Shown here: positions 35,232-53,384 of the stretch, piece by piece
How the letters are laid out: the number at the start of each line of letters is the position of its first letter
How positions within the stretch are numbered: position 1 is the first letter of the stretch
DNA from: Bacteroidales bacterium
GTDB lineage: Bacteria > Bacteroidota > Bacteroidia > Bacteroidales > UBA10428
Length of the DNA stretch: 58,524 nucleotides
Direction: 5' to 3'
NCBI GenBank assembly: GCA_016936215.1
Contig: JAFGPL010000235.1
Coordinates: 1 to 58,524, forward strand
Program-made: the position numbers and the translations under genes
The notes under the pieces: model-generated
What the model was told of the DNA's origin: nothing
Database searches by the model: none
What the model saw: only the letters and a program-made list of their open reading frames with translations

Positions 35232-35248
35232 GATATAATCATTCAGCT

Positions 35249-35420: not shown

Positions 35421-35549
35421 ACTTAAGTCAATGTCGTTTAATTAAGGTAATTATTTTATATCCTCTCCCCTGTCTGACGTCAGGCAGGCTGCACCCTCTC
35501 CCGAAGAGGGACATAAATGGTCGTAATTAAACGACATTGGGTCTTAAGT
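35421..35549. mobile_element. Small MITE-like inverted-repeat element
   Basis: CAATGTCGTTTAATTA (35429-35444) is the perfect reverse complement of TAATTAAACGACATTG (35524-35539); outside it ACTTAAG (35421-35427) pairs with CTTAAGT (35543-35549). The ~80 bp between hold a CCTGTCTGA-CG-TCAGGCAGG palindrome (35469-35488) and CCCTCTCCC/GAGGG words. No coding capacity. A non-autonomous mobile element is the simplest reading. Confidence 0.6.
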
Positions 35550-35576
35550 ATCGAATAATCTAAAACTAATTTTAAA

Positions 35577-36584
35577 ATGACAACAATACCTTTCGATTTA
35601 AATTTCACTGCCCGGAAACTCCTTCATTTGATAAGCCGAAAGGATGTCACCGGTGATGATAAGAGAAAAAACACAGTACCGGATTTTTTGAAGCAAAAGG
35701 ATAAAAAGTCTGATTCCATTAACAATGGACCTAAATCTAAGACTTTGTCACTTTATGAAAACAAATCGTTTGTGGAACAAAAACCAGTTGCAATTATTAC
35801 CGGGGCTACAAGCGGCATTGGTAAAGAGTTCGCTTACAGGTTTGCCAGTCTGGGTTTTAATTTAATAATCACAGGCCGCAGAAAAAACATCATTTCGCAA
35901 ACGGCTTCAGAGATCATTAAAAACTACAAGGTTAATGTGAAAGTTGTGATTGCTGACCTTTCTGTAAAAAAAGATATGGACAATCTTTTAAAAACCATCG
36001 AAGCCCAGAAAAATATCGAAGTGCTTGTTAACAACGCAGGGTTCGGGCTTTATGAAACCTTTGAAACACATAAAATAAAAAACCAGCTCACCATGTTAAA
36101 GGTGCATGTTGCCGCACCAGTTATATTAATTGATAAGGTTATTCCTCAAATGGTCATTAACAAAAAAGGCATAATTATCAATGTAACATCGCTTGCCGCC
36201 TACACCCCGACAGCCCATAATGCTATGTATACCAGTACAAAAAGTTTTCTCACAAGTTATTCTGAGTCCCTGGCCATGCAGCTTCAGAAATACGGAATTC
36301 ATGTGCAATGCCTTTGCCCGGGTTTTACAATAACTGATTTTCATAAGAAAGCGGACTATCAAAAAAACTTGTTGCCTGCAGGTATAGTCAACTGGATGTC
36401 CCCTTCGCAGGTTGTTGACTATTCACTTGAACATTTAAAGAACGGAAAGGTAATATGTATTCCCGGAGCCGCAAACCGTTTCCTCATGCACCTTATCTCG
36501 ATAGTCCCGCGAAAAATGTATTACTACCTGACCAACCATTATTACCGTATTGGCATCCATGACAAAAGTAAACAATATGCTTAG
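35577..36584 (+). CDS. SDR family oxidoreductase with N-terminal extension
   Basis: 335 aa. The SDR core starts near residue 70 (VAIITGATSGIGKEFAYRF) and has NNAG (VLVNNAGFGLYE), the catalytic Ser (NVTSLAAYTPT) and YTSTKSF (Tyr and Lys). The first ~65 residues are polar, lysine-rich and not part of the fold. The C-terminal region (MHLISIVPRKMYYYLTNHYY) resembles membrane-associated ketoacyl/sterol-type SDRs. Function not known. It directly follows the MITE-like element and converges with 36648-37253. Confidence 0.82.
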   Translation: MTTIPFDLNFTARKLLHLISRKDVTGDDKRKNTVPDFLKQKDKKSDSINNGPKSKTLSLYENKSFVEQKPVAIITGATSGIGKEFAYRFASLGFNLIITGRRKNIISQTASEIIKNYKVNVKVVIADLSVKKDMDNLLKTIEAQKNIEVLVNNAGFGLYETFETHKIKNQLTMLKVHVAAPVILIDKVIPQMVINKKGIIINVTSLAAYTPTAHNAMYTSTKSFLTSYSESLAMQLQKYGIHVQCLCPGFTITDFHKKADYQKNLLPAGIVNWMSPSQVVDYSLEHLKNGKVICIPGAANRFLMHLISIVPRKMYYYLTNHYYRIGIHDKSKQYA

Positions 36585-36647
36585 ACAACAATATTTTTTG
36601 AGATTCAGGAAATAATCTGAGTTTTTCCAATTGTAACAGAAAAAAAA

Positions 36648-37253
36648 TTACCAATTTGTTTCCCGGGCAAAATAAGAATTCAGGTTTTGAACAAGCGCTG
36701 AAATTTTCTTTTCAATTTCATTAAAAAAATAGGCATAAGCTTTGCGCTGATCTTCATCACATTTATCAACGGGGTAATAATCTTCGGCATCGTTGATGAT
36801 TATCTCGTCTTCATCTTTTTGGATATAATAAGGCTGGTAGTCAATTTTAACGGTATAGGTATATGCTTCTTTAATTTTTAAAATCTTAAAATTTCCAATG
36901 GTATACCTTATTTTATTATCCCTGAACTCAAGTGTTACATTGAACCTTATCCCTCTCTCGCGCGGAGGATCGTAGTCAAAAAAACCGCCTGAACCCGGGT
37001 ATCTTGACTTAAACATTTTCTCAGCCAGAATTCGTGTTGATGCACTGTCTTCCAAAAGTATAATTAAATCATTGATCAGTAACCACTCTTTGGCAAGATG
37101 GTAGATCATGGCTTGATTACTGTTAACATATTCATTAACACCCTGGTATTCAATTTTGTTTGAACTACTGTTTAATGGTAATTCCTGTCCCGGGATGTTT
37201 ATGATAAAAACCATTCCGGTTAAAAGCAAAAAAAATAGTTTTAGTGGTTTCAT
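36648..37253 (-). CDS. Exported DUF4468-like protein
   Basis: 201 aa with a signal peptide (~1-23, NIPGQ). The segment YHLAKEWL ... RFNVTLEFRDNKIRYTIGNFKI matches the pattern of DUF4468 (TBP-like fold) proteins of Bacteroidetes. Function unknown; periplasmic. Located between an SDR and the kduD terminator, it appears to be a single gene. Family call moderately sure. Confidence 0.65.
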   Translation of the reverse strand: MKPLKLFFLLLTGMVFIINIPGQELPLNSSSNKIEYQGVNEYVNSNQAMIYHLAKEWLLINDLIILLEDSASTRILAEKMFKSRYPGSGGFFDYDPPRERGIRFNVTLEFRDNKIRYTIGNFKILKIKEAYTYTVKIDYQPYYIQKDEDEIIINDAEDYYPVDKCDEDQRKAYAYFFNEIEKKISALVQNLNSYFARETNW

Positions 37254-37284
37254 ATTGCGGTTGTTTTAAAGGTTATAAAATAAA

Positions 37285-37333
37285 AATCAGGTAGTTGACC
37301 TATTCTTTATTTCAATGGTTAACTGCCTGATTT
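37285..37333 (-). terminator. Terminator of kduI-kduD
   Basis: AATCAGGTAGTTGACC (37285-37300) pairs with GGTTAACTGCCTGATT (37318-37333), about 13 of 16 positions; reading the minus strand, a run TTTTTATTTT follows. Lies ~30 bp after the kduD stop. Confidence 0.75.
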
Positions 37334-37362
37334 GCCGCAATTTTCGTGCCAGAATATCTGAA

Positions 37363-38157
37363 CTACATCTCTCCGCGATGCTTGCCAAGTGTGGCCAGCA
37401 TCCCTCCGTCAACATATAAAATATGACCGTTGACAAAATCTGAAGCCTTAGAAGCCAGGAATATTGCTGCACCCTGCAGTTCGTCGGGCTCTCCCCAGCG
37501 TTTAGCAGGTGTCCGGCTCATGATGAGTTCGTTGAAAGGATGACCATCTACCCGTATGGGGGCTGTCTGAGAGGTTGCAAAATATCCGGGACCGATGCCA
37601 TTTACCTGGATGTCAAATTCGGCCAGTTCTGCTGCCATGTTCTTGGTAAGCATCTTTAAACCGCCTTTGGCAGCAGCATAGGCAGAAACTGTTGGCCTGC
37701 CAAGCTCACTCATCATCGAACACATGTTGATAATTTTCCCACCGGTTTTGCGGGCAATCATCGTTTTTGCAACCCTTTTCGACATAATGAAAGGGCCGAC
37801 CAAATCAATGCTTATTACCTGTTCAAAATCGGCAGCTGTCATTTCAACCACTGGTATCCGCTTGATAATTCCGGCATTATTTACAAGAATATCAATCGGG
37901 GCAACCTCTTTCTCTATCTTTGTAATGAACTCATCAACTGCCTTTTCGTTTGTAACATCAAAAAGATAGGTATGTACTTCTATACCCTTTTCTTTATACT
38001 CTTTCTTAGCATTGTCGAGTTTTTCCTGCGACACATCATTGATTACGATTTTGGCCCCTGCGTTTGCCAATCCTGTGGCTATGGCCATTCCCAAACCATG
38101 GGTGCCGCCGGTTACCAATGCTGTTTTACCGGTAATGTCAAATAGTGTTATGCTCAT
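37363..38157 (-). CDS. kduD: 2-dehydro-3-deoxy-D-gluconate 5-dehydrogenase (KduD-type SDR)
   Basis: 264 aa. NAD(P)-binding GGTHGLG near residue 17, NNAGIIKR, catalytic Ser (CSMMSELG) and SAYAAAKGG (Tyr/Lys), and a C-terminal DFVNGHILYVDGG. It reduces 2,5-diketo-3-deoxygluconate (from KduI) to 2-keto-3-deoxygluconate with NAD(P)H. Bacteroidetes versions are often called gluconate 5-dehydrogenase, but the neighbour kduI, 119 bp upstream on the same strand, supports KduD. Confidence 0.9.
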   Translation of the reverse strand: MSITLFDITGKTALVTGGTHGLGMAIATGLANAGAKIVINDVSQEKLDNAKKEYKEKGIEVHTYLFDVTNEKAVDEFITKIEKEVAPIDILVNNAGIIKRIPVVEMTAADFEQVISIDLVGPFIMSKRVAKTMIARKTGGKIINMCSMMSELGRPTVSAYAAAKGGLKMLTKNMAAELAEFDIQVNGIGPGYFATSQTAPIRVDGHPFNELIMSRTPAKRWGEPDELQGAAIFLASKASDFVNGHILYVDGGMLATLGKHRGEM

Positions 38158-38276
38158 TTTTGATTCGTTTTAAATAACATGTTTAAGTTATACTATGCAA
38201 GGTAAAATTACCCGGTACCTCTTTTTATCAGTGCCGGTAATAAATATATTCTTCTAACAGTGATGCTGAAGCCGAA

Positions 38277-39119
38277 TTAACGAAGCTCGTTTGGTTGAAT
38301 TCCGTCCATATCGCTGTAATCGAGGTTTTCCCCGGCCATACCCCAGATAAAATTATAATTGGCGGTACCGCTTGCAGCATGCAATGACCATGGCGGAGAA
38401 AGAACAGCCTGTTCATTTTGCATCCAGATATGCCGGGTTTCCTGTGGTTGTCCCATATAGTGGCATACGGCCTGGTTTTCCGGCACGTTAAAATAGAAAT
38501 ATGCCTCCATCCTGCGCGAATGGGTATGGGCAGGCATGGTGTTCCAAACGCTGCCAGGCTTAAGCTCCGTGAGCCCCATCTGCAACTGGCAGGTGCTGAT
38601 CACGGTGTTGACCAGTAATTTATTGATGCGTCGGGCGTTTGATGTTTCAAGCGACCCAAGTTCGGCAACATCAGCCTTGTCGAGTGTTACATGCTTAATG
38701 GGGTTTTCTTTATGTGCCGGCGCTGAATTGATATAAAAATGTGCAGGCTTTGAAGCGTTGTTGCTTCCAAACTGAACATCTTTGGTGCCCCTGCCCAAAT
38801 AAAGTGCTTCTTTGTATTTTAGTTCATATTTGGTACCATCGGCCAGGATATAACCATCCCCTCCTACATTAATCACCCCCATTTCACGCCTTTCAAGGAA
38901 ATATGAGGATTTCAGGGGGTCAATGGCAACAAGCTTTATAGGCTCGCCAAGTGGTACTGCGCCTGCAACAATGTACCTGTCATAATGTGAATAGGTAATG
39001 TTGAGGTTACCCGGTTCCATAAGGTTCTGGATTAGAAAATGCCTGCGTATCTTCTCTGTGTCATAATTTTTAAAATCTTCGTGGTGAACGGCAAAGCGTT
39101 CTTCATAATTTACTGCCAT
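38277..39119 (-). CDS. kduI: 5-dehydro-4-deoxy-D-glucuronate isomerase
   Basis: 280 aa, the full family length. Cupin-type metal ligands are seen in [16 protein letters not shown] (two His and a Glu) and [11 protein letters not shown] (His). The N-terminus ([20 protein letters not shown]) and the [11 protein letters not shown] segment are also typical. It isomerises 4-deoxy-L-threo-5-hexosulose uronate, the product of unsaturated uronates from pectin lyases, to 2,5-diketo-3-deoxygluconate. Its promoter carries the shared LacI-type operator. Confidence 0.96.
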
Positions 39120-39143
39120 ATCATTAAATTTTTAATTATTATT

Positions 39144-39160
39144 TGTGCAATCGATTGTAC
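39144..39160. promoter_or_regulatory. LacI-type operator upstream of kduI
   Basis: TGTGCAATCGATTGTAC, the exact reverse complement of the site at 42893-42909. A palindrome centred on the CG of ATCGAT (TGCAATCGATTGTA). It overlaps the first base of the -7 box and the expected transcription start of kduI, the position of a repressor. Confidence 0.85.
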
Positions 39161-39167
39161 AAAGGTA
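39160..39167 (-). promoter_or_regulatory. -7 box of the kduI-kduD promoter
   Basis: CAAAGGTA on the plus strand is TACCTTTG on the minus strand, exact TAnnTTTG. Leader of about 34 bases to the kduI start. No clear -33 TTTG, which fits a regulated promoter. Confidence 0.7.
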
Positions 39168-39192
39168 TAAAACATCTGTGAAAAATACCCGT

Positions 39193-40218
39193 TTAAACTC
39201 CTTTTTTCAATGACGATGACCTGATGATAAGTTCCGGTTCTATTACAATGTGTTTATAATCATTCTTTTCCGCCGAATGTACCTCATCAAGAAAAAGAGC
39301 TGCAACTTCTCTCCCGATCTCCAGGCTGTTCTGGTCTATTGAAGTCAGGCCGGGTTCCATAATTTTGGTAAAAGGCTCATTTGAAAAGCCAACCACAGCA
39401 CAATCACCGGGAATATCGTAACCAGAAGCCTTAAGGTACCCAATCGCACCGAGCGCCGAAATATCACTTGCCGAAAAAATCGCATCAGGCTTGTTTTTAT
39501 ATTTCATCATATTTTCACATGACCTCCAGCCTTTATCTTCTGTAAGGCAATCATGAAAAATATACCCGTCAATTTGTTGAATTTTATTGTCGTTCAACGC
39601 TTCAAGGTATCCAAGCATTCTGTTTTTGTATACATTTATATGCGGTGGGCCTGCAAAATGAACTATTTTTCTGAACCCTTCATTGATAAGGTGTGATACC
39701 GCCTTATAGGCTCCCTTGAAATCATCAACCATTACTTTATTAGCTTCTATCTCATCTGCTACCCGGTCGAAAAAAAGCAAAGGAATTTTATTTTGCTTCA
39801 CCAGGTTAAAATGATCGAGATTATGTGTCTCCCCCGATATAGATACAAGTATGCCATCAACCCTGGCGTTAATCAGCGCCTTTACATTATCAACCTCCTT
39901 TTCATACTTCTCGCAGGTTTGGGTAATAATGGTCCGGTATCCGGCATTACTGGCAGTTTCTTCTATACCCCCGATAACATTGGAGAAAAAATTACGGTTA
40001 ATATGCGGTACAATCACCCCTATAGTTTTGCTACGTCCGGTGCGCAGGTTCGAGGCAACAATATTGGGCTGGTAGTTTAATTTAACAGCAAGCTCTTTAA
40101 CTTTTTTGCGCGTGCTCAGACTAATCCTCGGATTGTCGCTCAAAGCCCTTGATACCGTTGATGCAGAAATTTTAAGTTCCCGCGCAATATCATGTATGGT
40201 TACCTGTGAAGATTTCAT
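39193..40218 (-). CDS. LacI-family transcriptional regulator of uronate catabolism
   Basis: 341 aa from ATG 40218. I reject the ATG at 40239 because a -7 box (40237-40244) would overlap it. The N-terminal HTH reads VTIHDIARELKISASTVSRAL, divided here at about residues 6-26, followed by the hinge (NYQPNIVASNLRTGRSKTIG) and a periplasmic-binding-protein-like effector domain (~60-330). The natural ligand is likely an intermediate such as 2-keto-3-deoxygluconate (inference). The identical operators upstream of kduI and eda on either side make this the probable repressor of both units. Confidence 0.93.
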   Translation of the reverse strand: MKSSQVTIHDIARELKISASTVSRALSDNPRISLSTRKKVKELAVKLNYQPNIVASNLRTGRSKTIGVIVPHINRNFFSNVIGGIEETASNAGYRTIITQTCEKYEKEVDNVKALINARVDGILVSISGETHNLDHFNLVKQNKIPLLFFDRVADEIEANKVMVDDFKGAYKAVSHLINEGFRKIVHFAGPPHINVYKNRMLGYLEALNDNKIQQIDGYIFHDCLTEDKGWRSCENMMKYKNKPDAIFSASDISALGAIGYLKASGYDIPGDCAVVGFSNEPFTKIMEPGLTSIDQNSLEIGREVAALFLDEVHSAEKNDYKHIVIEPELIIRSSSLKKGV

Positions 40219-40236
40219 TATTATGTGAAAAGTTTT

Positions 40237-40244
40237 CAAATTTA
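40237..40244 (-). promoter_or_regulatory. -7 box of the lacI-family gene
   Basis: CAAATTTA on plus = TAAATTTG on minus, exact TAnnTTTG, 18 bases before ATG 40218, leaving a leader of about 10 bases. Decides the start codon of the regulator. Confidence 0.65.
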
Positions 40245-40396
40245 AGAAATTACGTTTAAAAGCACATTATGTAAAATAATATGTTATTAAATGTATCAAA
40301 GCCAAATTGAATATTGAAAATTCTAAACTAATTACTTAGCTTAGACACTTCGTTTTATATCAATAATCCTTTACTAAAAAACTAAAAATCAGACTT

Positions 40397-42832
40397 ATGA
40401 AATTCGGTTATTTTGATGATCAAAGAAGAGAATATGTTATTACCAATCCTGAAACACCTTACCCATGGATTAATTATCTTGGAAATAAGGATTTCTTCAC
40501 ATTAATCTCGAATACTGCCGGCGGATATAGCTTTTACCGCGATGCCAGGCTGAGACGCATTACCCGGTACAGGTATAACAACGTGCCCATTGATGACGGC
40601 GGAAAATACTTCTATATAAACGATAACGGAACAGTCTGGAACCCGGGATGGAAACCTGTGAAGGTAAGACCGGATAAATATGAGTGCAGGCACGGACTTG
40701 GTTACACGGTTATCAGGTCTGAAAAAAACAACCTTGAAGCCGAGGTTACATATTTTGTACCTTTAAACAACACCTGCGAAATTCAAAAATTGAAGCTTAA
40801 CAACACGGGTAAATCAAAAAAAAGCTTCAGATTATACTCTTTTGTTGAGTGGTGTCTCTGGAATGCAAATGATGACATGACCAATTTCCAGCGCAATTTT
40901 TCTACCGGCGAGGTAGAAGTTGAAGGTTCAGTGCTTTATCATAAAACCGAATACCGCGAAAGGCGCAACCACTATGCCTTTTATTCTGTTAATTCACCTA
41001 TCGTGGGCTTTGACACCGACAGGGATTCATTTATAGGCCTTTACAACGGCTTCGATGCCCCGCGGGCAGTATTTGAAAATAAGCCGTCTAATTCTGTTGC
41101 CCACGGATGGTCACCGGTGGCTTCCCATTGTCTGGACATTGAGCTGGAGCCCGGCGAAAGCAAGGAATATATTTTTTTAATTGGTTATATTGAGAACGCT
41201 GATGATAAAAAATTCATCTCAAAAGCAGTTATTAATAAAGATAAGGCTAATGAGATGATCCAAAAATTTAATTCGTCTGAAAAGGTAAATGCAGCATTTG
41301 AAGAACTAAAAAGCTATTGGGACCAATTATTGTCGGTTTATCAGCTCAAACATAAAGATGAAAAATTAAACCGCATGGTAAACATATGGAACCAGTATCA
41401 GTGCATGGTTACTTTTAACATGTCGCGAAGCGCTTCTTATTTCGAGTCGGGTATCGGTCGCGGTATGGGTTTCAGAGATTCCAACCAGGACCTGGTAGGT
41501 TTTGTTCACCTGATACCCGAAGCCGCCAAAGAAAGGATTCTGGACATTGCAGCCACGCAATTTGAGGACGGCGGGGCTTATCACCAGTACCAGCCGCTAA
41601 CCAAGCGGGGCAATGCCGATATCGGGGGTAACTTTAACGATGACCCGCTCTGGCTTATTTTAGCGGTAACTGCTTATATCAAAGAAACAGGTGATTTTTC
41701 AATTCTTGGCGAAATGGTTCCGTTCAACAATGATGAAACAAAATCTAAAAGCCTTTTTGAACACCTGAAGGTATCGTTTTACCATGTGGTAAACAACCTT
41801 GGGCCACATGGCCTTCCGTTGATTGGCCGTGCCGACTGGAACGACTGTCTCAACCTGAACTGTTTTTCCAGCAATCCCGACGAATCATTCCAGACTACTG
41901 AAAACAAGGCAGGGGGCGTGGCTGAATCAATCTTCATTGGTGGAATGTTTGTATTATATGGAAATGAATTCATTAAACTCTGCTCCAGGATCGGGAAAAG
42001 CAATGAAGCCGATGATGCCAGGCCTCATGTAACCAGCATGCTGAAAGCAGTGAACGAACACGGATGGGATGGTGAATGGTTTCTGCGCGCCTATGACTTC
42101 TACGGTAAAAAAATCGGCAGCAAAGAAAACGACGAAGGACAGATATTTATTGAGCCTCAGGGTTTCTGTATAATGGCAGGAATAGGTGTTGAAGACGGTA
42201 AAGCAGCCAAAACCTTAAAATCTGTTAAAGAGCGTCTTGACTGTAAATACGGCATCGTGCTTAACAACCCTGCTTTTACAGAGTATAAAATCAATATGGG
42301 AGAGATTTCAACTTATCCGCAGGGATACAAAGAGAATGCCGGTATTTTCTGTCACAACAATCCCTGGATAATGATCGCCGAGACTTTAATGGGCAATGGC
42401 GACCAGGCATTTGAATATTACAGCAAAATAGCCCCTTCGTATCTTGAAGAGATCAGCGACTTGCACAAAACCGAACCCTATGTATATTCGCAAATGATTG
42501 CAGGTAAAGATGCCTTTAAGCCCGGGGAGGCTAAAAATTCTTGGCTGACAGGTACGGCTGCCTGGAACTTTTATGCCATATCGCAATATATCCTTGGGAT
42601 ACAACCCGATTACAATGGCCTCAGAATTGACCCCTGCATACCAAAATCATGGGAATCTTTCAGTATTTCGCGTAAGTTCAGGGGTGCTACTTTTAATATC
42701 AGCATCAAAAATCCGTCGCATGTGATGAAGGGGGTTAAAAAAATCACCCTCGACGGAAAAGAGCTGGGCAGTAATTTAATTCCGGTTTTAACAGATCGTG
42801 GCTTTCATAATGTAGAGGTTATTTTAGGATAA
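40397..42832 (+). CDS. GH94 cellobiose phosphorylase
   Basis: 811 aa, the typical length of cellobiose phosphorylase. It starts [20 protein letters not shown], matches the family through [43 protein letters not shown] and [12 protein letters not shown], and has the catalytic acid Asp480 in [13 protein letters not shown]. No signal peptide, so cytoplasmic. The family phosphorolyses cellobiose to glucose 1-phosphate and glucose. Here it lies between a uronate regulator and KDPG aldolase, which raises the possibility of an acidic disaccharide substrate; sequence nonetheless favours cellobiose. I see no copy of the 17-bp operator in its own upstream region. Confidence 0.92.
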
Positions 42833-42860
42833 ATAATTTTTCTTTTCTATTTTTAACACC

Positions 42861-42888
42861 TTTGAGTAACAAATAATTTTTATATTTG
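42861..42888 (+). promoter_or_regulatory. Promoter of the eda-hexuronate transporter operon
   Basis: TTTG (42861-42864), 16-bp spacer, TATATTTG (42881-42888). Transcription should start near 42895, inside the operator that follows. Confidence 0.75.
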
Positions 42889-42892
42889 CCCG

Positions 42893-42909
42893 GTACAATC
42901 GATTGCACA
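42893..42909. promoter_or_regulatory. LacI-type operator upstream of eda
   Basis: GTACAATCGATTGCACA, identical (inverted) to 39144-39160. It begins 4 bp after the -7 box, so a bound repressor would cover the transcription start. Confidence 0.85.
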
Positions 42910-42920
42910 TAAATTATTAT

Positions 42921-43595
42921 ATGGCCAGATTCACAAGAATACAAGTAGCATTAGCGATGAAAGAGACCGGTATGGTACCGGTATTTTATCACCCCGACCT
43001 TGAAGTCTGCAAGAAAGTTGTAAAAGCCTGTTACGAAGGCGGGGTAAAAGTATTTGAATTCACCAACAGGGGTGACTTTGCCCACGAAATATTTTCTGAA
43101 CTTAACAAATACGCTATAAAAGAGATGCCCGAAATGATCATGGGCGTTGGGTCGGTATCCGATCCGGGAACTACGGCACTCTATATTCAGCTTGGGGCAA
43201 ATTTTATTGTATCTCCCCTGTTAAATGAAGAGATGGCTAAAATTTGCAACCGTAGAAAGATTTCATGGTCACCCGGTTGCGGGTCGGTTTCTGAAATATC
43301 AAAAGCAGAAGAACTGGGTGCCGAAGTGGTTAAAATTTTTCCCGGCTCACAGGTTGGTGGGCCTAAATTTGTTTCAGCCGTCTTGGGCCCAATGCCCTGG
43401 ACAAGCATCATGCCAACAGGCGGTGTGGAACCTACCGAAGAAAATCTCGGGGCATGGTTCAAAGCAGGTGTACATTGTGTAGGTATGGGTTCACAGCTAA
43501 TAACCAAAGACCTGATTCAAAAAAGTGATTACCAAAAATTAACCGAAGATTGCAAGAAGGCGTTGGAGATAATTAAAAAATACAGGAAGAAATAA
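42921..43595 (+). CDS. eda: 2-keto-3-deoxy-6-phosphogluconate aldolase
   Basis: 224 aa from ATG 42921; a TTG at 42903 would start inside the operator. KDPG/KHG aldolase motifs: VFEFTNRGD (catalytic Glu region), SPGCGSVSEI, Schiff-base Lys138 in VVKIFPGSQVGGP and MPTGGVEP. It splits KDPG into pyruvate and glyceraldehyde 3-phosphate, the last step of pectin-derived uronate breakdown. The hexuronate transporter gene follows after 27 bp in the same operon. Confidence 0.93.
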   Translation: MARFTRIQVALAMKETGMVPVFYHPDLEVCKKVVKACYEGGVKVFEFTNRGDFAHEIFSELNKYAIKEMPEMIMGVGSVSDPGTTALYIQLGANFIVSPLLNEEMAKICNRRKISWSPGCGSVSEISKAEELGAEVVKIFPGSQVGGPKFVSAVLGPMPWTSIMPTGGVEPTEENLGAWFKAGVHCVGMGSQLITKDLIQKSDYQKLTEDCKKALEIIKKYRKK

Positions 43596-43622
43596 ACAAT
43601 TATTAACCCAAATATCATTTTC

Positions 43623-45104
43623 ATGAGCTTTAACGAAATCAATGAAAAAATCGGCAAATACAGGTGGACAATCTGTACACTGATATTTTTTGCCACAACA
43701 ATCAACTACCTCGACCGGAATGTCCTGGGGCTGCTCAAAGAAACACTCTCTAAAGACGGCGTGTTTGGTGATGATGTTGCAAACCAGGAGCAGTATTATT
43801 CGTGGGTGGTAATGAGCTTTCAGGTAGCTTATGCCATTGGTATGATCCTGGCAGGAAGGTTTATTGACTGGATAGGCACCAAAAAAGGTTATGCATACTC
43901 ACTCCTGGGATGGAGTTTAGCTGCCATCGGTCATGCTTTCGGCCACACCACCTTCACGTTTGGAATCTGGCGTGCAGCTTTAGGTATTAGTGAAGCAGGA
44001 AATTTTCCTGCAGCCAATAAAACTGTTGCGGTCTGGTTCCCAAAGAAAGAAAGGGCATATGCCACCGGAATATACAATTCAGGTGCCAATGTCGGCGCAA
44101 TTTTTGCACCACTGGTGGTACCCTGGATTGCTTCACACTGGGGATGGGAATGGGCATTCGTTCTAACCGGTGCGGTAGGGCTTATCTGGATATATTTCTG
44201 GCTAACCTCTTATTCATCACCAGATGAAAAACTGGCTGCGGGTAAATTATCACAGGCTGAGTATGACTATATCCATAGCGATAAAGACGAAATAAAAGAA
44301 AACAATGGCGCAGGTGATAGCAGAGTTTCCTGGGGCAAGCTTTTAAAATACCGTCAGACCTGGGCATTCTTTTTCGGTAAATTCCTCACCGATCCCATCT
44401 GGTGGTTTTTCCTGTTTTGGCTACCGGCATTTCTTGGCGGAGAAAACACAAGAAAGATTACAGAACACCTTAACTATTTACTCAGCCAGGGAAAGCTTAC
44501 TTTAGAGCAATTCAATGAACGCCTTGCTGCATTAGCTGCCGGAAAAACTGAGGCGACATTAGATATCTTCAAAGAGTTTATGACTTATCCAGGTTATATT
44601 AGCTGGCCTTTTGCAGTTGCAGTAGTTTATACTGTTGCTACTTTCGGTTCAATACTTGGCGGCTGGCTGCCAAAAAAATTCATTAATGGTGGTATGGATG
44701 CCAATAAAGCACGTAAGCTTTCTATGTTTATTTATGCCCTGTTCCCGCTGACAGTTTTACTTGCCAGAGAACTTGGAGAGATTAATACATGGCTTGCCGT
44801 ATTTACCATTGCTATTGCCTGTTCTGCTCACCAGGCATGGTCTGCAAATATATTTACCACCGTTTCGGATATGTTCCCGAAAAAAGCTGTTGCCTCTGTT
44901 ACTGGCATAGGCGGTATGGCTGGAGCTGGTGGCGGTATCCTGATAGCATGGTCTGCCGGGTTGCTTCTGAAACACTTTGCTGCCCTTGGTAAAATCGAAC
45001 TTGGTTACGGCATAATGTTTATTGTCTGCGGAACAGCTTATGTTTTGGCTTGGGTGATTATGCACCTGTTCGTTCCTAAATTTAAACAAATTACTGATTT
45101 ATAG
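43623..45104 (+). CDS. MFS hexuronate transporter (ExuT-like)
   Basis: 493 aa with about 12 membrane spans. The N-terminal half has the ExuT/anion:cation symporter look: INYLDRNVLGLL, SFQVAYAIGMILAGRFIDWIG, EAGNFPAANKTVAVWFPKKE. A hydrophilic loop of ~55 residues (TEHLNYLLSQGKLTLEQFNE…) between spans 7 and 8 is longer than usual. It would import galacturonate/glucuronate or unsaturated uronate across the inner membrane. The shared promoter with eda and the operator make it part of the LacI regulon. Confidence 0.9.
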   Translation: MSFNEINEKIGKYRWTICTLIFFATTINYLDRNVLGLLKETLSKDGVFGDDVANQEQYYSWVVMSFQVAYAIGMILAGRFIDWIGTKKGYAYSLLGWSLAAIGHAFGHTTFTFGIWRAALGISEAGNFPAANKTVAVWFPKKERAYATGIYNSGANVGAIFAPLVVPWIASHWGWEWAFVLTGAVGLIWIYFWLTSYSSPDEKLAAGKLSQAEYDYIHSDKDEIKENNGAGDSRVSWGKLLKYRQTWAFFFGKFLTDPIWWFFLFWLPAFLGGENTRKITEHLNYLLSQGKLTLEQFNERLAALAAGKTEATLDIFKEFMTYPGYISWPFAVAVVYTVATFGSILGGWLPKKFINGGMDANKARKLSMFIYALFPLTVLLARELGEINTWLAVFTIAIACSAHQAWSANIFTTVSDMFPKKAVASVTGIGGMAGAGGGILIAWSAGLLLKHFAALGKIELGYGIMFIVCGTAYVLAWVIMHLFVPKFKQITDL

Positions 45105-45125
45105 TTTTTTTTCAAAATATTCTTA

Positions 45126-45157
45126 AAAGGCTGGCTCAAACGAGACAGCCTTTTTTA
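45126..45157 (+). terminator. Terminator of the eda-transporter operon
   Basis: AAAAGGCTG … CAGCCTTTTTT with a 12-base loop, about 20 bp after the stop codon. Confidence 0.85.
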
Positions 45158-45219: not shown

Positions 45220-48132
45220 ATGAAGACAATTTTCACACTTTTACTTACGCTGCTTATCACGCAACAATCAATTGCACAGCAGAAGATCATTACTGTTTCA
45301 GGTCAGCTTACCGATAATAACGGTGAACCGCTACCCGGGGTAAATATCATCATTAAAGGAACTGCCACCGGCACCATTTCAGATATTGACGGGAATTATA
45401 GCATTAAGGCGCCAGTTGGTTCAGTGCTGGTATTTAATTTCATTGGTTATTTATCTGAAGAAGTAGTTGTAACTGAGGATATGGCCGATGATTACGTTAC
45501 CGGTGCAGAGAATAATACCCCAGTAAACAAGGAAAGAAGGAAATCAATAGAAAAGTATAGATTACCCGGTGACGGAGACATTGCTACAGCCTGTTTTTCA
45601 GATTCATCCTCAAGGTTTCAGATTTACGATCTCAAACAATCAAACTGGTACAACAGGTTTAATTTAAACAACGTAAATTGTAATTATAAACTCGATCCTG
45701 AAACTATATGGAGCATCAGACCTTTAAAAACAGGAAAAAGCAATAATTGCATTTACACCGTAAAAACCAACAAAACCATTAAGTGCTACCTTCCCCGTAT
45801 CTCGTACCTTTTTTCTTATAGTGTTGATATACCAGTATATTTTCAGAAAACTCAATCGCAATATAGTCAGGGGGTACCTTCAGAAGGCGGGTATAAATGG
45901 TTCGGCCCCGAAACGGGAGTTGCCATGAGCTGGGGACCTGATATAAGGTTGCTTGAATACGATGGTTCAGACTATGCCTTCGACCCTAACGGCCGTCTGG
46001 TTAATGCAGGTGAGGGAAACGGCAAACCTGCCGGGATATATAACCCGACCCGGTTTTTCACCAACGGTGGTTATCTTACCAGCAAACTGAAAATTGAAGA
46101 CAACTTTGGCATGTTTGGGTATTCGTTCAACTATCAAAACAATGCTGCCACAGGAATTATAACGGGCACAAAACAACAAAGCAACAATGCAGGTTTAAAA
46201 CTCGATTATAACCATTATGACCGATTTAAAATGAGCGGAAACCTGATGTATCATACATCAACAGGAAACCTCTCTCTTTCAGGTTCAAACCTGTTGCGGC
46301 TAATGAAATCGGCATACCTTACACCACCTACATTTGACAATGGCCATTCCTCCACCCTGCCCGATGGCAGCATCCGTTCCTTCAGCCCGCAAACATATTA
46401 CAATCCTTACTGGCTGATCAACAATATACCCGATGAAGAAAAAAACAGCAGGTTAATCGCAGGCCTCAATGGTGAAATGAGGTTTAGCTCCTCGAGGTTA
46501 AATTACAATATCAGTTATGACAACCAGCAGATTGATAATATATCGGGTATCGGGGCCAGCAATGTGGCTTTTGAAAACGGGCTGGTCACGAACAGGAATG
46601 AAACCTTTATAATGCTACATAACGAATTGGGTTACGATTATTATTTACATTATTTCAGAAATATCCGGTTAGACTTTTTTGTCTCCCTTCAGGCTGATTA
46701 TTATGAACGCAGCCTTTACCGTAAAGATATGGAGGGATTCCCGAAAATGGATACTGATCCTTCTGCTAATCCCATAAGTCTTTTTGACTCCATTAACCAA
46801 AGGCAGACCCTTATGGTTCAAACCTCATCTGTTTTAAGGGTAAAAGAGTTCCTTAATCTTATAATATCAAATACAATCAACTGGTCATCAACGAAAAGGG
46901 ACAACAAACCTTTTTTGTGCCCGGGTATCGGTTTGAATTTGAATGTTGACAAATTGCCATTCTGGAATTTCCGTTTCTTTTCTAATCTCGGTATCTATAC
47001 CAATTATAATCATGTACTTATCGAAGCACCAATCAACTACAGGTTTGGAAAATATAGTTCATTGCTGCTTCAACCTGAAAATTCAAACAGCTTTTATGAA
47101 AGCAACGAAATCTTTTTTAACAGTATGCTCCACCCTGAACAACATGATAAATTCACGGCAGGAATAAGGGCAGGCTTCTTCCGCAACCTTCTGCAGACAG
47201 ATTTCAACGTCTTCAATTCGTCAGTAAAGAACCATTTATTACCGGTTATTTCACAGAATTCAATCAGCCTCATAAACGGGGCTGATATAAATGACCGGGG
47301 ATTTGAACTTACAGCTTCTGTTCTTGGCAGCATCAGGTTTCTAAAAATAGAAAAGGCGCAACTCAACCTGTCACTTGCACATAGCTATCCTGTAGTAAAA
47401 AATGTTTATGAACCTTATGATAAAATAAAAGTCGCCGGCTTTCAAACAGTTGGATCATACCTGGTTAAAGATCAGCCTTACGGGGTACTCATCGGGAGCA
47501 CGTACCTCAGGGACGACAAGGGTAGAATGGTAATCGGACCTGATGGCTATCCCATGACAGACACAGAATCCGGGATAATCGGGAATCCTAATCCCGACTG
47601 GACTTTAGGAGTTGAGGGAAGACTGGATTGGGGAGGATTTTCTTTGCAGTGTCTGGTTGATCTGCGCAAAGGCGGCGACATATGGAACGGTACCCTTAAC
47701 ACGATGAACTATTTCGGGGTTTCAGAAACCACCGCGAAGCTGAGAAATACCTATCATTTTCTTTTTGAAGGGGTAACACAGGATGGATTACTGAATACAG
47801 TACCTGTAGATTTTGCAAATCCCGCCGACGGCCTTTCACAAAACAGGTGGGTAAGATACGGGGAGAACGGGGCAGACGAAGAAGCCATTAACGACGGATC
47901 TTATATAAGGCTTAAAGAATTGAAAGCAGCATACTGTTTTAATATGCGAAGGGCCTTTAATTTCAACCTAAATGCAAGTATTGCACTTTTCGGAAGAAAT
48001 CTGTTTGTCCTGAGTAAAAACAATCTTCTTCCCTGGAATACTTTTTCAGGCAGGCCCGAAGGCAACGGCTTTGATTATTTCAACCTGCCAGGCACCAGAA
48101 GCTACGGATTTGTCTTCGAAATGGATTTCTGA
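45220..48132 (+). CDS. SusC-like outer-membrane barrel with degenerate, TonB-box-less plug
   Basis: 970 aa. Signal peptide (1-19, SIAQ), CarboxypepD_reg-like domain (~27-85, SGQLTDNNGEPLPGVNI). Where SusC proteins have the TonB box (…EVVVVGYG) and a ~120-residue plug, this protein has ~100 atypical residues (~88-188) without VRIRG or VDG motifs; only LDPETIWSIRPLK (158-170) and NNCIYTVKTNK look like worn relics of the plug's last strands. The barrel from ~190 to the end is normal SusC (YSQGVPSEGG, MSWGPDIRLLEYDGS, final aromatic FVFEMDF). There is no SusD next to it. The following gene encodes a complete plug, suggesting that the two act together (inference). Confidence 0.85.
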   Translation: MKTIFTLLLTLLITQQSIAQQKIITVSGQLTDNNGEPLPGVNIIIKGTATGTISDIDGNYSIKAPVGSVLVFNFIGYLSEEVVVTEDMADDYVTGAENNTPVNKERRKSIEKYRLPGDGDIATACFSDSSSRFQIYDLKQSNWYNRFNLNNVNCNYKLDPETIWSIRPLKTGKSNNCIYTVKTNKTIKCYLPRISYLFSYSVDIPVYFQKTQSQYSQGVPSEGGYKWFGPETGVAMSWGPDIRLLEYDGSDYAFDPNGRLVNAGEGNGKPAGIYNPTRFFTNGGYLTSKLKIEDNFGMFGYSFNYQNNAATGIITGTKQQSNNAGLKLDYNHYDRFKMSGNLMYHTSTGNLSLSGSNLLRLMKSAYLTPPTFDNGHSSTLPDGSIRSFSPQTYYNPYWLINNIPDEEKNSRLIAGLNGEMRFSSSRLNYNISYDNQQIDNISGIGASNVAFENGLVTNRNETFIMLHNELGYDYYLHYFRNIRLDFFVSLQADYYERSLYRKDMEGFPKMDTDPSANPISLFDSINQRQTLMVQTSSVLRVKEFLNLIISNTINWSSTKRDNKPFLCPGIGLNLNVDKLPFWNFRFFSNLGIYTNYNHVLIEAPINYRFGKYSSLLLQPENSNSFYESNEIFFNSMLHPEQHDKFTAGIRAGFFRNLLQTDFNVFNSSVKNHLLPVISQNSISLINGADINDRGFELTASVLGSIRFLKIEKAQLNLSLAHSYPVVKNVYEPYDKIKVAGFQTVGSYLVKDQPYGVLIGSTYLRDDKGRMVIGPDGYPMTDTESGIIGNPNPDWTLGVEGRLDWGGFSLQCLVDLRKGGDIWNGTLNTMNYFGVSETTAKLRNTYHFLFEGVTQDGLLNTVPVDFANPADGLSQNRWVRYGENGADEEAINDGSYIRLKELKAAYCFNMRRAFNFNLNASIALFGRNLFVLSKNNLLPWNTFSGRPEGNGFDYFNLPGTRSYGFVFEMDF

Positions 48133-48177
48133 AAATATTTCACTGTTTAATCATTTGAAATTTTAAATTATAAAATC

Positions 48178-51100
48178 ATGAAAACAATAAAATACACCAT
48201 CGTTATAGCAGCCTTTTCACTACTGGCTTTAGCAACATATAAATACAGAATGGTTGATCTAACCGGTTTCCTGAACCTTCTGAAGGAGAAACTGACCAGC
48301 TTCAATGAAAAACTTCCACAGGAAAAGATTTATGTACATGTTGATAAACCGCTTTACACACCGGGCGATGACATTTGGTTTAAAATTTACCTGTGTAACG
48401 GGGCAGACCACAGCCCTTCTCAAATAAGCAATGTTGTATATGCTGAACTTATAGATCCAAAGGGCGGCGTTAAAGAGAGCAAAACACTTCCGGTAATTAA
48501 AGGAGGCGCCAAAGGCGATTTCAGCCTGAGCCAGGGTGATCCCGGGGGCATCTATAAAATCAAGGTATATACTACCTGGCTTAAAAATTCAGGTGAAGAT
48601 GATTTTTTCACTAAGGAAATTACTGTGCAGAAATTGGTTGCCCCACGGTTGCTGATGGACCTTGAATTTGCGAAGAAAGCTTATGGCGCTGGCAATCTCG
48701 TAGAGGCAAAGACTTCAATAAAAACTCTTGAAAACGAACCACTAACAAATTATACAGTCAGGTACTCGGCTTTTTTAAAGGGAACAGAATTCCTTAACGG
48801 AACGCACAAAACGAGTGCAGAAGGCAAACTAACAATTTCATTCAACCTGCCGGATACATTAACTACCAATGATGGATTGTTAAACGTGGTAATTAATTAT
48901 GAAGGCAACAGTGAATCAATATCCCGGTCAATTCCTATAGTACTTAACAATATTGATCTTCAGTTTTTCCCCGAAGGTGGTGAAATGGTGCATAATACCG
49001 AATGCCGTGTGGCTTTCAAAGCTTTGAATGAATTCGGAAAACCTGCCGATATCGAAGGTGTGATTGTTGATTCAGACGATAACCGTGTGTGTAGCTTTAA
49101 AAGTTTTCATCACGGGATGGGGGCATTTATCCTTATCCCTGCATCAGACAAACAATACCGGGCGCTGATTACAAACCCCAAAGGGATCAGTAAAAAATAC
49201 GAACTTCCCAAAGCATTGGTATCGGGCGCTGTAATGAGGCTTGACACAGTCACCCAAAATATCATAAGAATAAGCGTATGCGCCCCGGAATTTCCTCAAT
49301 ACAGCATTGTTTTGCAGGTTAGGGGGAAAATCTGCCACACAGTTACCCATTCGGGGAAAAAGGGATTCAGGGAGGTTGAACTACCAATAAATGAATGTCC
49401 TGCAGGCATTGCACAAATTACGATATTCGACCACCATGGCGTTGCATGCGCCGAAAGGCTTGTATTTATAAATCCTGAAAAGAACCTGAAAATCTCCATA
49501 TCTACAGATAAAAAGAAATACGCCCCAAGGGAGATGGTGAAGCTAAATATCAGGACCACAGATTATAAGAATAAGCCCGTAAGTGGCAATCTATCGGTAT
49601 CAGTTGTCAACGAAAAGATTATCAGCATGATGGCCGACAAGCAAGACCATATCTTGTCATGGTTGCTCATGTCTTCGGACCTGAAAGGTAAAATTGAAGA
49701 GCCTTCATTCTATTTTAAAAAAGATGAACCAAAAGCGCCAAAGGCACTCGATTACCTGCTAATGACACAGGGATACCGGCGGTTCACCTGGGAAGAAGTT
49801 TTAACCCGCGAGCCGGTACCCCAGTTCCTTCCCGAACAGGAAGGATTGGTTTCGGGAAGGGTTAATACCCTTAATGGTAATGGCGTTAAGGCTACCATTT
49901 ACATGCTTGAACTAAACAACCAGAGGAGAATTGAAAAACTGAAAACCGGAAAATCAGGACGGTTTATGTTCATGGGTTCAGATCCTTCAGTGCCGAGGTT
50001 TATATTTGCTGATGCCCCATGGCACAGGGAAAAAGCAGTTTTACTAAGCATTGATCAGGAGTCGCTGATTTCAAAAGGAAAAAACCAGTTGACAAATCCG
50101 GCAGCAGAACATATCATTATTCCCGAAATAATATGTCCAAAAGTTATCGAAAAGAAACCGGTTAATGAAGTAATACCGGTAAAAGGTTCTGCGACAAAAA
50201 AAATATCATTAACCGAAGACATCCAGGCACTTGAGGAGGTGGTTGTGGTTGGTTATGGTATCGTGAGAAAAGCAGATATAACCGGCGCTATAACAGTTGT
50301 AAAACCCGATGAAATTAGAAGCATGTTACCTCCAAACCGCACGCTCGAACAGGCATTGCAGGGAAGGGTTGCCGGCCTGGCAATTACGAACAACGATGGC
50401 GTGCCAAATGCTCCTGCAAATGTAAGAATCAGGGGCATTGCCACACTTGAAAATTCAGGCCAGCCACTTTACATTGTGGATGGAATACCTGTTTCACCTG
50501 ATATTGGTGAAAACACTGGTTCTATCATCAATCCCGAAAACATTACCAGTATTGAGGTTGTCAAAGATGCTTCACTCACTTCAATTTACGGATCAAGGGC
50601 AGCCAACGGGGTGATAATCATAACTACAAAAAATATTGGCAGAAGCAATCACAGAAAATTAACTAAAGAGCTGCAGAACAAATATTCATGTACATATCTT
50701 GCCCCGAGGCAATTTTCACAGGTAAGGGAATTCTATTCCCCAAAATATGCTTCAACCGAAATACCCGGGGTAAGAACCGACTTTAGAAATACGATTTACT
50801 GGAACCCGGATGTTATTACCAATGAGAAAGGTGAAGCAACTTTGAATTTCTATAATTCAGATGAGGTTACCACCTTTAATGTAACTGCCGAAGGAATCGG
50901 AACAGAAGGTTTGGCCGGGAGGGAAGAGTACAGGTATTATACCCAATTGCCGTTCAGTATGGATATTAAAATCCCGCCCTACATGGTTTTTACCGATACG
51001 GTATATTTTCCGTTAATCATTAAAAACAATACTGATCATAAGGTAACCGGCAGTTTAATCATAGATGCACCTGCATGTCTTGAGCCTTTCGACACAATTC

Positions 51101-52842
51101 CTGTGAACATTTCCATTGATGCAGGCACAGCTACAACACTTTATCCCGGTTATATCGTAAAGAACATTCCTGGTATTTTCAAAATATCTGTGCTTTTTTC
51201 AAGCAACAATTATTCAGATTCCTTTGAAAAAGAGATTGAAGTGTTCCCCGTAGGTTTTCCCGCAAAAGTAAGTTTCTCAGGAAACGAAAAATCAAGGAAC
51301 ATAGAATTCATGACCGGAGATATTGTTCCTGGTTCGCTTTCAGGAAGGTTTACGGCATTTCCAAGTATCCTGTCGGATTTAATGTCGGGTATCGAATCCA
51401 TCCTCAGGGAACCCTATGGTTGCTTCGAGCAGACATCATCAAGTACATATCCCAATATAATGGTACTTAGATATTTAAATGAAACAGGACTGAACGATAA
51501 TGCGCTGCGCAACAAAGCCCTCGGTTTGATTAAGAAAGGCTACAGTAAGCTTATCTCTTTTGAAACATCGCAAAACGGGTACGAGTGGTTTGGCCAAAGC
51601 CCTGCACATGATGGCCTTACCGCATACGGCCTGCTCGAATTCACTGATATGAAGGCAGTTTACCATGGAGTGGATGAAGAAATGATAAACCGCACATTGA
51701 AGTGGGTGCTTAACCAGCGTGACGGCAAAGGCGGTTTTGTAAAAAGTCAGCGTGCCCTCGACCAGTTTGGAAGGGCCAGTAAAGAGGTCACCAATGCATA
51801 TATTGTATATGCACTGTCTGAATCGGGTTATAAAGATAATTTGCCCGAATACCTTTCTGCGTTCAATGAAGCCAAAGAATCGAAAGACCCCTATCGTTTG
51901 GCGCTGATTGCAAATGCTGCCTTTAACCTTAACCGGGATGCCGATGGTGATATGCTGTTAGGTATTATGGCAGAGAAAATAAAGAACAGCAGTTGGGATA
52001 AATTGCGGATAGATCCCTCAATTACCTGTTCGGGAGGAAAATCTTTAAGTATTGAAACTGCTGCACTTTATACAATGGCTGAACTGAAAGCAGGGCCACG
52101 AAATATCGGCGTTTTTAACCAGTCGCTGGAATATATTGTATCCGGCAGAAATGGCGGCGGATTCGGATCAACGCAGGCTACCATACTGGCATTAAGGGCG
52201 CTGACAGAATACGCAAAATTTAACAGGGCATCTTCCGGGGGCGGTATGATCGAAATCAGCTATAATGGTTCAAAAATCAACGAGTTGGCATACTCATCCG
52301 GGGACAAAGAAGCGATTGTTGCCGACAACCTTGAAAGATTTCAGAAACCGGGAAGGCAGTCCTTTACTGTTTCATATTTCAATACAGAGAACCCCCTGCC
52401 CTACTCGCTCGATTTTTCTTGGACATCGCGCACTCCTTCTAGTGACACTGATTGTAAGGTTGACATAACAACCAAAACAAATAATAGTACAGTATTAATG
52501 GGCGAACTGGTAAGAATTACCACAACTGTAAAGAACAAGACAAATGAAGGTTTGCCCATGAATGTAACCCTGGTGGGCATTCCTTCGGGTTTAAGTCCGC
52601 AACCCTGGCAGCTTAAAGAGTTACAGGAGAAAGGTGTTGTTGATTTTTATGAAATAAGAAAGAATTATGTGGTATTCTATTTCAGGCAGTTGAAGCCAGA
52701 AGAAACAAAAACCGTTAACCTTGACCTGAAAGCTGATATACCCGGTACCTTCCGGGCCCCGGCCAGTACGGCTTATTTATACTACACCAACGAGTATAAA
52801 GACTGGGAGGCTGGTGAAAGGGTGATTATCAGAAAAGATTAG
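48178..52842 (+). CDS. Alpha-2-macroglobulin-like protein with inserted TonB box and SusC-type plug
   Basis: 1554 aa. N-terminal hydrophobic signal/anchor (~5-22), macroglobulin MG1/MG2 domains (EKIYVHVDKPLYTPGDDIWF, ~50-150) and further MG domains to ~550, then a carboxypeptidase-like domain (~555-620). Residues ~684-818 are a complete SusC-type plug: TonB box LEEVVVVGYG, LEQALQGRVAGL, NVRIRGIATL, PLYIVDGIPV, SIEVVKDASLTSIYGSRAAN and VIIITTK. The A2M domain (~838-930), the thioester motif GCFEQ (Cys1082-Gln1085), the alpha-helical thioester-domain repeats (~1060-1390) and a receptor-binding-like C-terminus follow. Bacterial A2Ms trap proteases; the plug makes this one a likely outer-membrane partner of the SusC-like barrel encoded 45 bp upstream. 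Confidence 0.88.
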   Translation: MKTIKYTIVIAAFSLLALATYKYRMVDLTGFLNLLKEKLTSFNEKLPQEKIYVHVDKPLYTPGDDIWFKIYLCNGADHSPSQISNVVYAELIDPKGGVKESKTLPVIKGGAKGDFSLSQGDPGGIYKIKVYTTWLKNSGEDDFFTKEITVQKLVAPRLLMDLEFAKKAYGAGNLVEAKTSIKTLENEPLTNYTVRYSAFLKGTEFLNGTHKTSAEGKLTISFNLPDTLTTNDGLLNVVINYEGNSESISRSIPIVLNNIDLQFFPEGGEMVHNTECRVAFKALNEFGKPADIEGVIVDSDDNRVCSFKSFHHGMGAFILIPASDKQYRALITNPKGISKKYELPKALVSGAVMRLDTVTQNIIRISVCAPEFPQYSIVLQVRGKICHTVTHSGKKGFREVELPINECPAGIAQITIFDHHGVACAERLVFINPEKNLKISISTDKKKYAPREMVKLNIRTTDYKNKPVSGNLSVSVVNEKIISMMADKQDHILSWLLMSSDLKGKIEEPSFYFKKDEPKAPKALDYLLMTQGYRRFTWEEVLTREPVPQFLPEQEGLVSGRVNTLNGNGVKATIYMLELNNQRRIEKLKTGKSGRFMFMGSDPSVPRFIFADAPWHREKAVLLSIDQESLISKGKNQLTNPAAEHIIIPEIICPKVIEKKPVNEVIPVKGSATKKISLTEDIQALEEVVVVGYGIVRKADITGAITVVKPDEIRSMLPPNRTLEQALQGRVAGLAITNNDGVPNAPANVRIRGIATLENSGQPLYIVDGIPVSPDIGENTGSIINPENITSIEVVKDASLTSIYGSRAANGVIIITTKNIGRSNHRKLTKELQNKYSCTYLAPRQFSQVREFYSPKYASTEIPGVRTDFRNTIYWNPDVITNEKGEATLNFYNSDEVTTFNVTAEGIGTEGLAGREEYRYYTQLPFSMDIKIPPYMVFTDTVYFPLIIKNNTDHKVTGSLIIDAPACLEPFDTIPVNISIDAGTATTLYPGYIVKNIPGIFKISVLFSSNNYSDSFEKEIEVFPVGFPAKVSFSGNEKSRNIEFMTGDIVPGSLSGRFTAFPSILSDLMSGIESILREPYGCFEQTSSSTYPNIMVLRYLNETGLNDNALRNKALGLIKKGYSKLISFETSQNGYEWFGQSPAHDGLTAYGLLEFTDMKAVYHGVDEEMINRTLKWVLNQRDGKGGFVKSQRALDQFGRASKEVTNAYIVYALSESGYKDNLPEYLSAFNEAKESKDPYRLALIANAAFNLNRDADGDMLLGIMAEKIKNSSWDKLRIDPSITCSGGKSLSIETAALYTMAELKAGPRNIGVFNQSLEYIVSGRNGGGFGSTQATILALRALTEYAKFNRASSGGGMIEISYNGSKINELAYSSGDKEAIVADNLERFQKPGRQSFTVSYFNTENPLPYSLDFSWTSRTPSSDTDCKVDITTKTNNSTVLMGELVRITTTVKNKTNEGLPMNVTLVGIPSGLSPQPWQLKELQEKGVVDFYEIRKNYVVFYFRQLKPEETKTVNLDLKADIPGTFRAPASTAYLYYTNEYKDWEAGERVIIRKD

Positions 52843-52870
52843 GTGATTTGTGAATAGTTCATGGGTTGTA

Positions 52871-52911
52871 TGGCTTCCGGTGAAATTTTACCGGAAGCCG
52901 TTTTTTTATTT
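52871..52911 (+). terminator. Terminator after the macroglobulin gene
   Basis: GGCTTCCGGT-GAAATTT-TACCGGAAGCC followed by GTTTTTTT: a perfect 9-10 bp GC-rich stem, ~30 bp after the stop. Closes the SusC-like/A2M operon. Confidence 0.9.
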
Positions 52912-52979: not shown

Positions 52980-53384
52980 ATGAAATCAGTAAATCTAAAA
53001 GTATTATTTACATTATTTATTATTGCAACAATAAGCATGTCATCGGTGAATGCCCAAAAACCCCGGTGGGAACTTTTGGGGATGAGAAAAGTGGATTTTA
53101 AGCTCGACAGGGATGTTATTCCCGTAACATGGCGCGAAGGAGCTTTTAATGCGGTAAGAATTGTTGTAAGACAAGGCCAGCTTAACATGCACAAATGTGT
53201 CATTCATTTTGAAAACGGTGGCACCAAAGAGGTAGAGCTTCGTCATAATTTTGCCGGAAGAAGCGCTTCACGCTTGATAGACCTGCCCGGAAACAAAAGA
53301 CTTATTGAAAAAATCGAGTTCTGGTACGACACAAAAAATATGGCAGGGAGAAAGGCTACTGTAATGGTGTATGGCAGGCATTGA
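52980..53384 (+). CDS. Exported DUF2541-type protein
   Basis: 134 aa. Signal peptide (1-25, SVNAQ), then a single beta-rich domain: WELLGMRKVDFKLDRDVIPV, FNAVRIVVRQGQLNMH, RSASRLIDLPGNKRLIEKIEFWYDT, the characteristic order of DUF2541 proteins. Periplasmic, function unknown. It follows the macroglobulin terminator and so is transcribed separately; it converges with the C1q-domain gene. Confidence 0.8.
   Translation: MKSVNLKVLFTLFIIATISMSSVNAQKPRWELLGMRKVDFKLDRDVIPVTWREGAFNAVRIVVRQGQLNMHKCVIHFENGGTKEVELRHNFAGRSASRLIDLPGNKRLIEKIEFWYDTKNMAGRKATVMVYGRH

Follow-up and report, generated by a model that had tools for sequence, protein, structure and literature searches.

Judging from its sequence, one locus in a Bacteroidales genome very likely encodes a TonB-dependent receptor whose plug acts in trans, being carried on a different polypeptide from the barrel that it would close. 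The locus lies in a 58,524-nucleotide contig (GenBank identifier JAFGPL010000235.1), the whole of which we refer to as the window, and consists of a gene for a plugless SusC-type barrel of 970 residues (45220..48132, + strand; domain and HMM scans, AlphaFold) followed after 45 bp, and in the same reading frame, by a gene for a plug-bearing alpha-2-macroglobulin-like protein of 1554 residues (48178..52842, + strand; domain scans). A TonB box, a plug and a barrel are thus all present, distributed over two chains. Alpha-2-macroglobulin (A2M) is a protein-trapping relative of complement C3.

Terminator-like hairpins flank the pair on both sides, so that the two genes appear to form an operon of their own. 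The 5' hairpin (AAAAGGCTG..CAGCCTTTTTT, 45125..45156, + strand) was read by eye from the sequence and has a loop of 12, longer than our hairpin scan allows; the scan did report the 3' hairpin (52870..52901, + strand), a strong one with 14 pairs followed by a T-run. The genes upstream (window positions 31398-45104) resemble a cluster for pectin/rhamnogalacturonan use, with an RGL11 lyase, a GH94 protein and an MFS transporter, and are apparently separate from the pair. A 134-residue DUF2541 protein is encoded 3' of the pair (window positions 52980-53384) and was absent among the recurrent neighbours of homologous loci. A SusD HMM, built from 10 seeds and unvalidated on divergent SusD, had no match in 84 loci, and no pbp1C-like gene was among the recurrent neighbour clusters listed, in which neighbours are only partly annotated.

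The barrel protein begins with a CarboxypepD_reg-like domain (residues ~22-85; 45283..45474, + strand) that was recognized by Pfam (PF13715, 1.5e-14; CarbopepD_reg match at residues 26-85) and modelled by AlphaFold at pLDDT ~83-93. Its C-terminal part (residues 193-970; 45796..48129, + strand) is a SusC-type beta-barrel by barrel HMM (1e-104), Foldseek and VIA, and with 65 homologues was modelled at pLDDT ~95. The nearest solved structure by Foldseek was SusC (5fq6_B, E-value 5e-46), and a VIA comparison of the model (residues 190-970) with 5t4y_C gave a Z-score of 24.1 and an rmsd of 3.8 over 664 aligned residues. The TIGR04056 match was best over residues 297-970 (model positions 300-981) and scored 180 bits, which is below the curated cut-off of 368. 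Canonical and split barrels have many conserved structural columns in common, in which the lumen side and the lipid side are indistinguishable without coordinates. Between the two domains, at the usual site of the SusC TonB box and plug, lies a linker (residues 91-189; 45490..45786, + strand) that AlphaFold, again with 65 homologues, left disordered (pLDDT <50, mostly <40), and that arguably retains a relic of the last plug hairpin and nothing more. Neither PF07715 (Plug) nor a plug HMM built here matched the barrel protein. Among 74 homologues of the barrel, none had a plug match and none had an 8/8 match to the TonB box pattern within residues 60-230. A frameshifted plug was considered and rejected, as a search of all six frames of 45220-46000 found no plug-like sequence and the loss is common to the homologues. 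The original prediction that this barrel lacks both plug and TonB box was therefore borne out by Pfam, the plug HMM, the six-frame search and AlphaFold; the finding it had named as contrary, a full plug with a TonB box at residues 88-188, was the opposite of the disordered stretch that we saw.

The macroglobulin has the features by which the A2M superfamily is recognized, namely MG2, A2M and thioester-containing (TED) domains and a CxEQ thioester, here GCFEQ. The MG2 domain (residues 50-135; 48325..48582, + strand; PF01835, 2.9e-10) is followed by a region (residues 379-483; 49312..49626, + strand) resembling MG5/MG6 of C3/C5 and A2M_BRD, a weak match (PF07703, 0.0033, below cut-off) in a stretch (residues 360-488) that also aligns weakly with C3/C5 MG5/6. 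After this comes a CarboxypepD_reg-like (CarbD) domain (residues 557-625; 49846..50052, + strand), assigned from AlphaFold secondary structure at positions 13-81 of the model; in one homologue (L046) the corresponding domain ahead of the TonB box is matched by PF13620 (1e-7). The TonB box LEEVVVVGYG (residues 685-694; 50230..50259, + strand) is aligned in 65 homologues, of which 52 match the pattern at 8/8 positions and 61 at 7/8 or better. It immediately precedes a SusC plug domain (residues 698-818; 50269..50631, + strand) with matches to PF07715 (6.4e-18, residues 698-812) and to the SusC-specific plug signature TIGR04057 (8.6e-14), and TIGR04056 matches residues 665-829 at 1.6e-54. The prediction that the macroglobulin 45 bp downstream has both its TonB box and its SusC plug intact thus held against PF07715, TIGR04057 and the 65-homologue alignment. 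Beyond the plug lie the A2M domain at the start of MG7 (residues 872-959; 50791..51054, + strand; PF00207, 1.7e-10), the TED (residues 1064-1345; 51367..52212, + strand; PF07678, 1.3e-30) with the thioester motif GCFEQ (residues 1081-1085; 51418..51432, + strand), which is invariant in the homologues, and a receptor-binding or C-terminal MG domain (residues 1462-1539; 52561..52794, + strand; PF07677, 2.4e-7).

An AlphaFold model of residues 545-1554 showed, in order, the CarbD domain, a linker of low confidence that includes the TonB box, the plug, a further low-confidence linker and a confident MG7-TED-MG part that resembles the structures of A2M, C3 and C5; for the plug alone confidence was moderate (mostly 50-75 pLDDT). 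In profile comparison the segment that follows the plug aligns with the part of human A2M just past the bait region. Since the plug precedes this post-bait segment and follows the MG5/6-like stretch, the CarbD domain, TonB box and plug occupy the site before MG7 where a bait region or anaphylatoxin domain would be. The TED half (window positions 51367-52212) is far closer to human A2M and CD109 than to E. coli YfhM (5.7e-58 for human A2M versus 3e-19 for YfhM). No clear signal peptide cleavage site was seen in the window macroglobulin, nor was a lipobox; a regular expression for the latter hit 3 of 65 homologues, none convincing by eye, and in the two macroglobulins scanned with Pfam there was no match to a T9SS tail. 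The same genome encodes a second A2M of 2168 residues (L060:6173-12676, - strand) with CarbD and bMG10 domains and no plug match.

A search for relatives turned up this gene pair in four further genomes, and a GTDB scan returned 301 relatives, of which 80 loci were kept for analysis; their record names cover Cytophagales, Marinilabiliales, Bacteroidales, Flavobacteriales, Chitinophagales, Sphingobacteriales and Saprospirales. The plug is kept in 78 of the 80 macroglobulins, and after setting aside three of these loci that end at a contig edge, 75 could be assessed. A plugless barrel adjoins the macroglobulin in 74 of them (upstream in 72, downstream in two) with a median gap of 7 bp, the gap being 20 bp or less in 53 of the 74. 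In the 75th (L127) the plugless barrel (996 residues, 653 bits) is on another contig of the same genome, so that the adjacency which the original prediction had proposed to look for turned up throughout, save for this one unlinked pair. Conversely, a genome-wide search found no plugless barrel for L078 or L114, two loci whose macroglobulin lacks a plug, and the top-scoring barrels there were canonical SusC with plug; a third such locus (L161) has no barrel nearby, its genome (G192) being absent from the random-genome barrel matches. At L078, a 2005-residue protein with a plug at residues 1194-1346 (L078:13124-19138) is encoded directly after the plug-free macroglobulin. In an even sample of 392 genomes plus our own, macroglobulins with both TED and plug and the strongest plugless-barrel matches (at least 842 bits) fell in the same four genomes and were adjacent in all; the next-best barrels (716 bits or less), of which eight were read, were all canonical SusC with plug. 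This puts prevalence, besides our own genome, at no less than 3 of 392 evenly drawn genomes (~1%), a lower bound with two candidates scored per genome. We attach no p-value to the co-occurrence because the sampled genomes are related, but the split arrangement is far beyond chance: a sequencing or assembly artefact is ruled out by the agreement of 74 of 75 loci, and a chance neighbourhood by the co-occurrence and the unlinked pair in the L127 genome.

A natural control came from 16 further loci (L142-L157) with frequent MG2 proteins of 800-980 residues that have no TED, most of which carry a plug-like segment. None of these 16 loci adjoins a plugless barrel, none of the proteins has a convincing TonB box, and no plug among them exceeds 84 bits, versus 134-174 bits in three split pairs of the same table. 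An intact plug with a TonB box thus tracks the presence of a plugless barrel, and a plug on an MG2-type chain is not in itself proof of docking, since such proteins occur with no plugless barrel beside them.

A TonB box acts on the periplasmic side of the outer membrane, and in TonB-dependent transporters of known structure the plug has its two ends on that side as well. As the plug here is mid-chain, we infer that the macroglobulin body would very likely lie in the periplasm, where its plug, on flexible linkers, would close the adjacent barrel from its periplasmic side. Since the macroglobulin has the plug and the TonB box and the barrel lacks them, TonB would very likely pull on the macroglobulin, which would open the pore. 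It is moderately likely that the placement of the plug at the bait site lets docking, cargo binding or TonB pulling reshape the macroglobulin and expose its thioester, which would then covalently capture a protein or peptide coming through the opened pore as it reaches the periplasm. Candidate cargo might be a nutrient protein, a protease or a bacteriocin. Activation of the bacterial macroglobulin ECAM follows release of its bait region (PMC4498604), so a plug in the place of the bait could make force or cargo binding the trigger, and protein import through a TonB-dependent transporter has a precedent in the Fus system (PMC7593965). Taken as one scheme, a self-contained two-gene split receptor with a periplasmic macroglobulin, a trans plug, a TonB pull and thioester capture is the reading we favour and think probable. 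A stricter version, a TonB-powered trap in which the proton-motive pull on the bait-site plug would open the pore and at the same time prime the thioester, with a mechanical instead of a proteolytic trigger and the gate in trans, we put forward only tentatively.

Other readings share some of this evidence. The joint between plug and barrel might serve only to hold the macroglobulin against the periplasmic face of the outer membrane; there it would trap proteases or toxins that breach this membrane, and the barrel would transport nothing. Bacterial A2Ms have been proposed to be periplasmic protease traps (PMC4498604), and with a lipid anchor seemingly absent here such a joint could stand in for one; however, a plain tether would have no use for a TonB box, which almost all of the 65 homologues retain, and the barrel keeps its full SusC fold, so we regard this as rather unlikely. 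Quite improbable, in our estimate, is a macroglobulin plug that works outside this barrel, recruiting TonB or docking elsewhere; what shuts the barrel would then be the degenerate segment it carries or a different protein. The orphan MG2-plug proteins, the further plug-bearing genes at some loci and the absence of residual plug-barrel covariation (below) would agree with it, but plug-bearing macroglobulins and plugless barrels co-occur tightly in both directions, the barrel's own segment is disordered in the AlphaFold model, and it is the orphan plugs that have decayed while the paired ones are intact.

Two readings would send material the other way or place the trap on the other side of the membrane. 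Gated export, in which TonB-driven opening releases the macroglobulin or a periplasmic cargo, could point to the TonB-dependent transporter Oar, which is reported to be required for protease secretion in Myxococcus (PMC6434023), but comparison of neighbours across loci found no conserved cargo gene adjoining the pair, and we hold it to be very improbable. The original prediction had suggested a surface trap, an extracellular macroglobulin that catches proteins and hands them to the barrel. SusC systems do usually have surface partners, but the TonB box must be periplasmic, as must both plug ends, and neither the lipobox search nor Pfam gave a convincing sign of surface lipoproteins or T9SS export, which leaves this reading with hardly any likelihood; the split itself, and with it TonB action on the macroglobulin, is the part of that functional proposal that the motifs upheld and the survey strongly favours.

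As to how the favoured split receptor arose, a single branch of the barrel tree (SH-aLRT 99) separates the plugless barrels from the rest, and their sister (99) is the barrel of a single-chain receptor (L048) of Dysgonomonas sp. 511, whose genome also has a split pair; this placement relies on a single sequence of that kind in a quickly built tree. The receptor (L048:7411-12279, - strand, 1623 residues) and another of its kind (L051:4337-8917, - strand, 1527 residues) are single chains with the order CarbD-VIT-VWA-TonB box-Plug-barrel. Because the sister barrel sits in a receptor of this type, the split may derive from one that already had VIT/VWA domains, which are also carried by inter-alpha-trypsin inhibitor heavy chains. 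The plug tree did not separate A2M plugs from SusC plugs, and in it transfer from the same SusC and later gene conversion are indistinguishable. By distance covariation the barrel tracks the MG domains (partial r 0.56), and once the rest of the macroglobulin was allowed for, plug and barrel showed a partial r of 0.00, a weak test with so short a plug and so poorly resolved a plug tree.

We know of no natural TonB-dependent transporter with gate and barrel on separate chains. The plug and barrel of FhuA, produced as separate chains in E. coli, reportedly give a precedent for two-chain function, as a laboratory construct. Among known systems, the SusC/RagA transporters (BT2264, 5fq6; BT1763, 5t3r; RagA, 6sli) share the barrel fold, the CarbD extension and the type of TonB box and plug, whereas here a different chain bears the plug and TonB box, and the 10-seed HMM found no SusD neighbour. 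ECAM/YfhM (4rtd, 5a42) and the Salmonella A2M (4u48) share the MG domains, the A2M domain, the TED with CxEQ thioester and a likely periplasmic location, but here no lipobox or lipid anchor was seen, nothing like pbp1C was seen among the recurrent neighbour clusters listed and the bait site holds CarbD, TonB box and plug. The MG2-plug proteins of Bacteroidota (800-980 residues) have MG domains and, in most, the plug-like segment, but not the TED, TonB box or plugless barrel; the L048 receptor has the sister barrel, with VIT/VWA ahead of its TonB box, but in one chain. Fus (FusA/FusB/FusC) imports protein through a TonB-dependent transporter with dedicated partners, but FusA is one chain with its own TonB box and there is no macroglobulin. 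In the open-licence literature searched we found no description of a macroglobulin with a TonB/SusC plug. When gate and barrel share one chain, it is difficult to address whether the plug comes out of the barrel as transport proceeds, and a separate gate protein can be deleted, swapped or cross-linked independently of the barrel. A covalent trap of complement type placed beneath a pore of the outer membrane would also suggest a widespread bacterial means of protein import or interception and a second kind of macroglobulin trigger.

Some split pairs are preceded by genes of regulatory appearance. In Chryseobacterium and a relative (L160:1360-7038 and L135:3473-7904) the pair follows a sigma-factor-like gene and a gene whose product combines an anti-sigma-like N-terminus with a single membrane helix and a periplasmic SusC plug of its own; in L160 this product has the TonB box EIDEVVVTAYG as well as a VWA domain and a T9SS tail. 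Carried by such a regulator, the plug could signal the state of the barrel in the pair. At another locus (L158:2677-4090) a sigma-factor-like gene, an anti-sigma-like gene and a gene for a 156-residue protein with two half-plug motifs lie directly 5' of the split pair, and in five Flavobacterium loci (L130, L131, L139, L140 and L159) a divergent sigma-factor-like gene and a membrane protein gene are found upstream of it.
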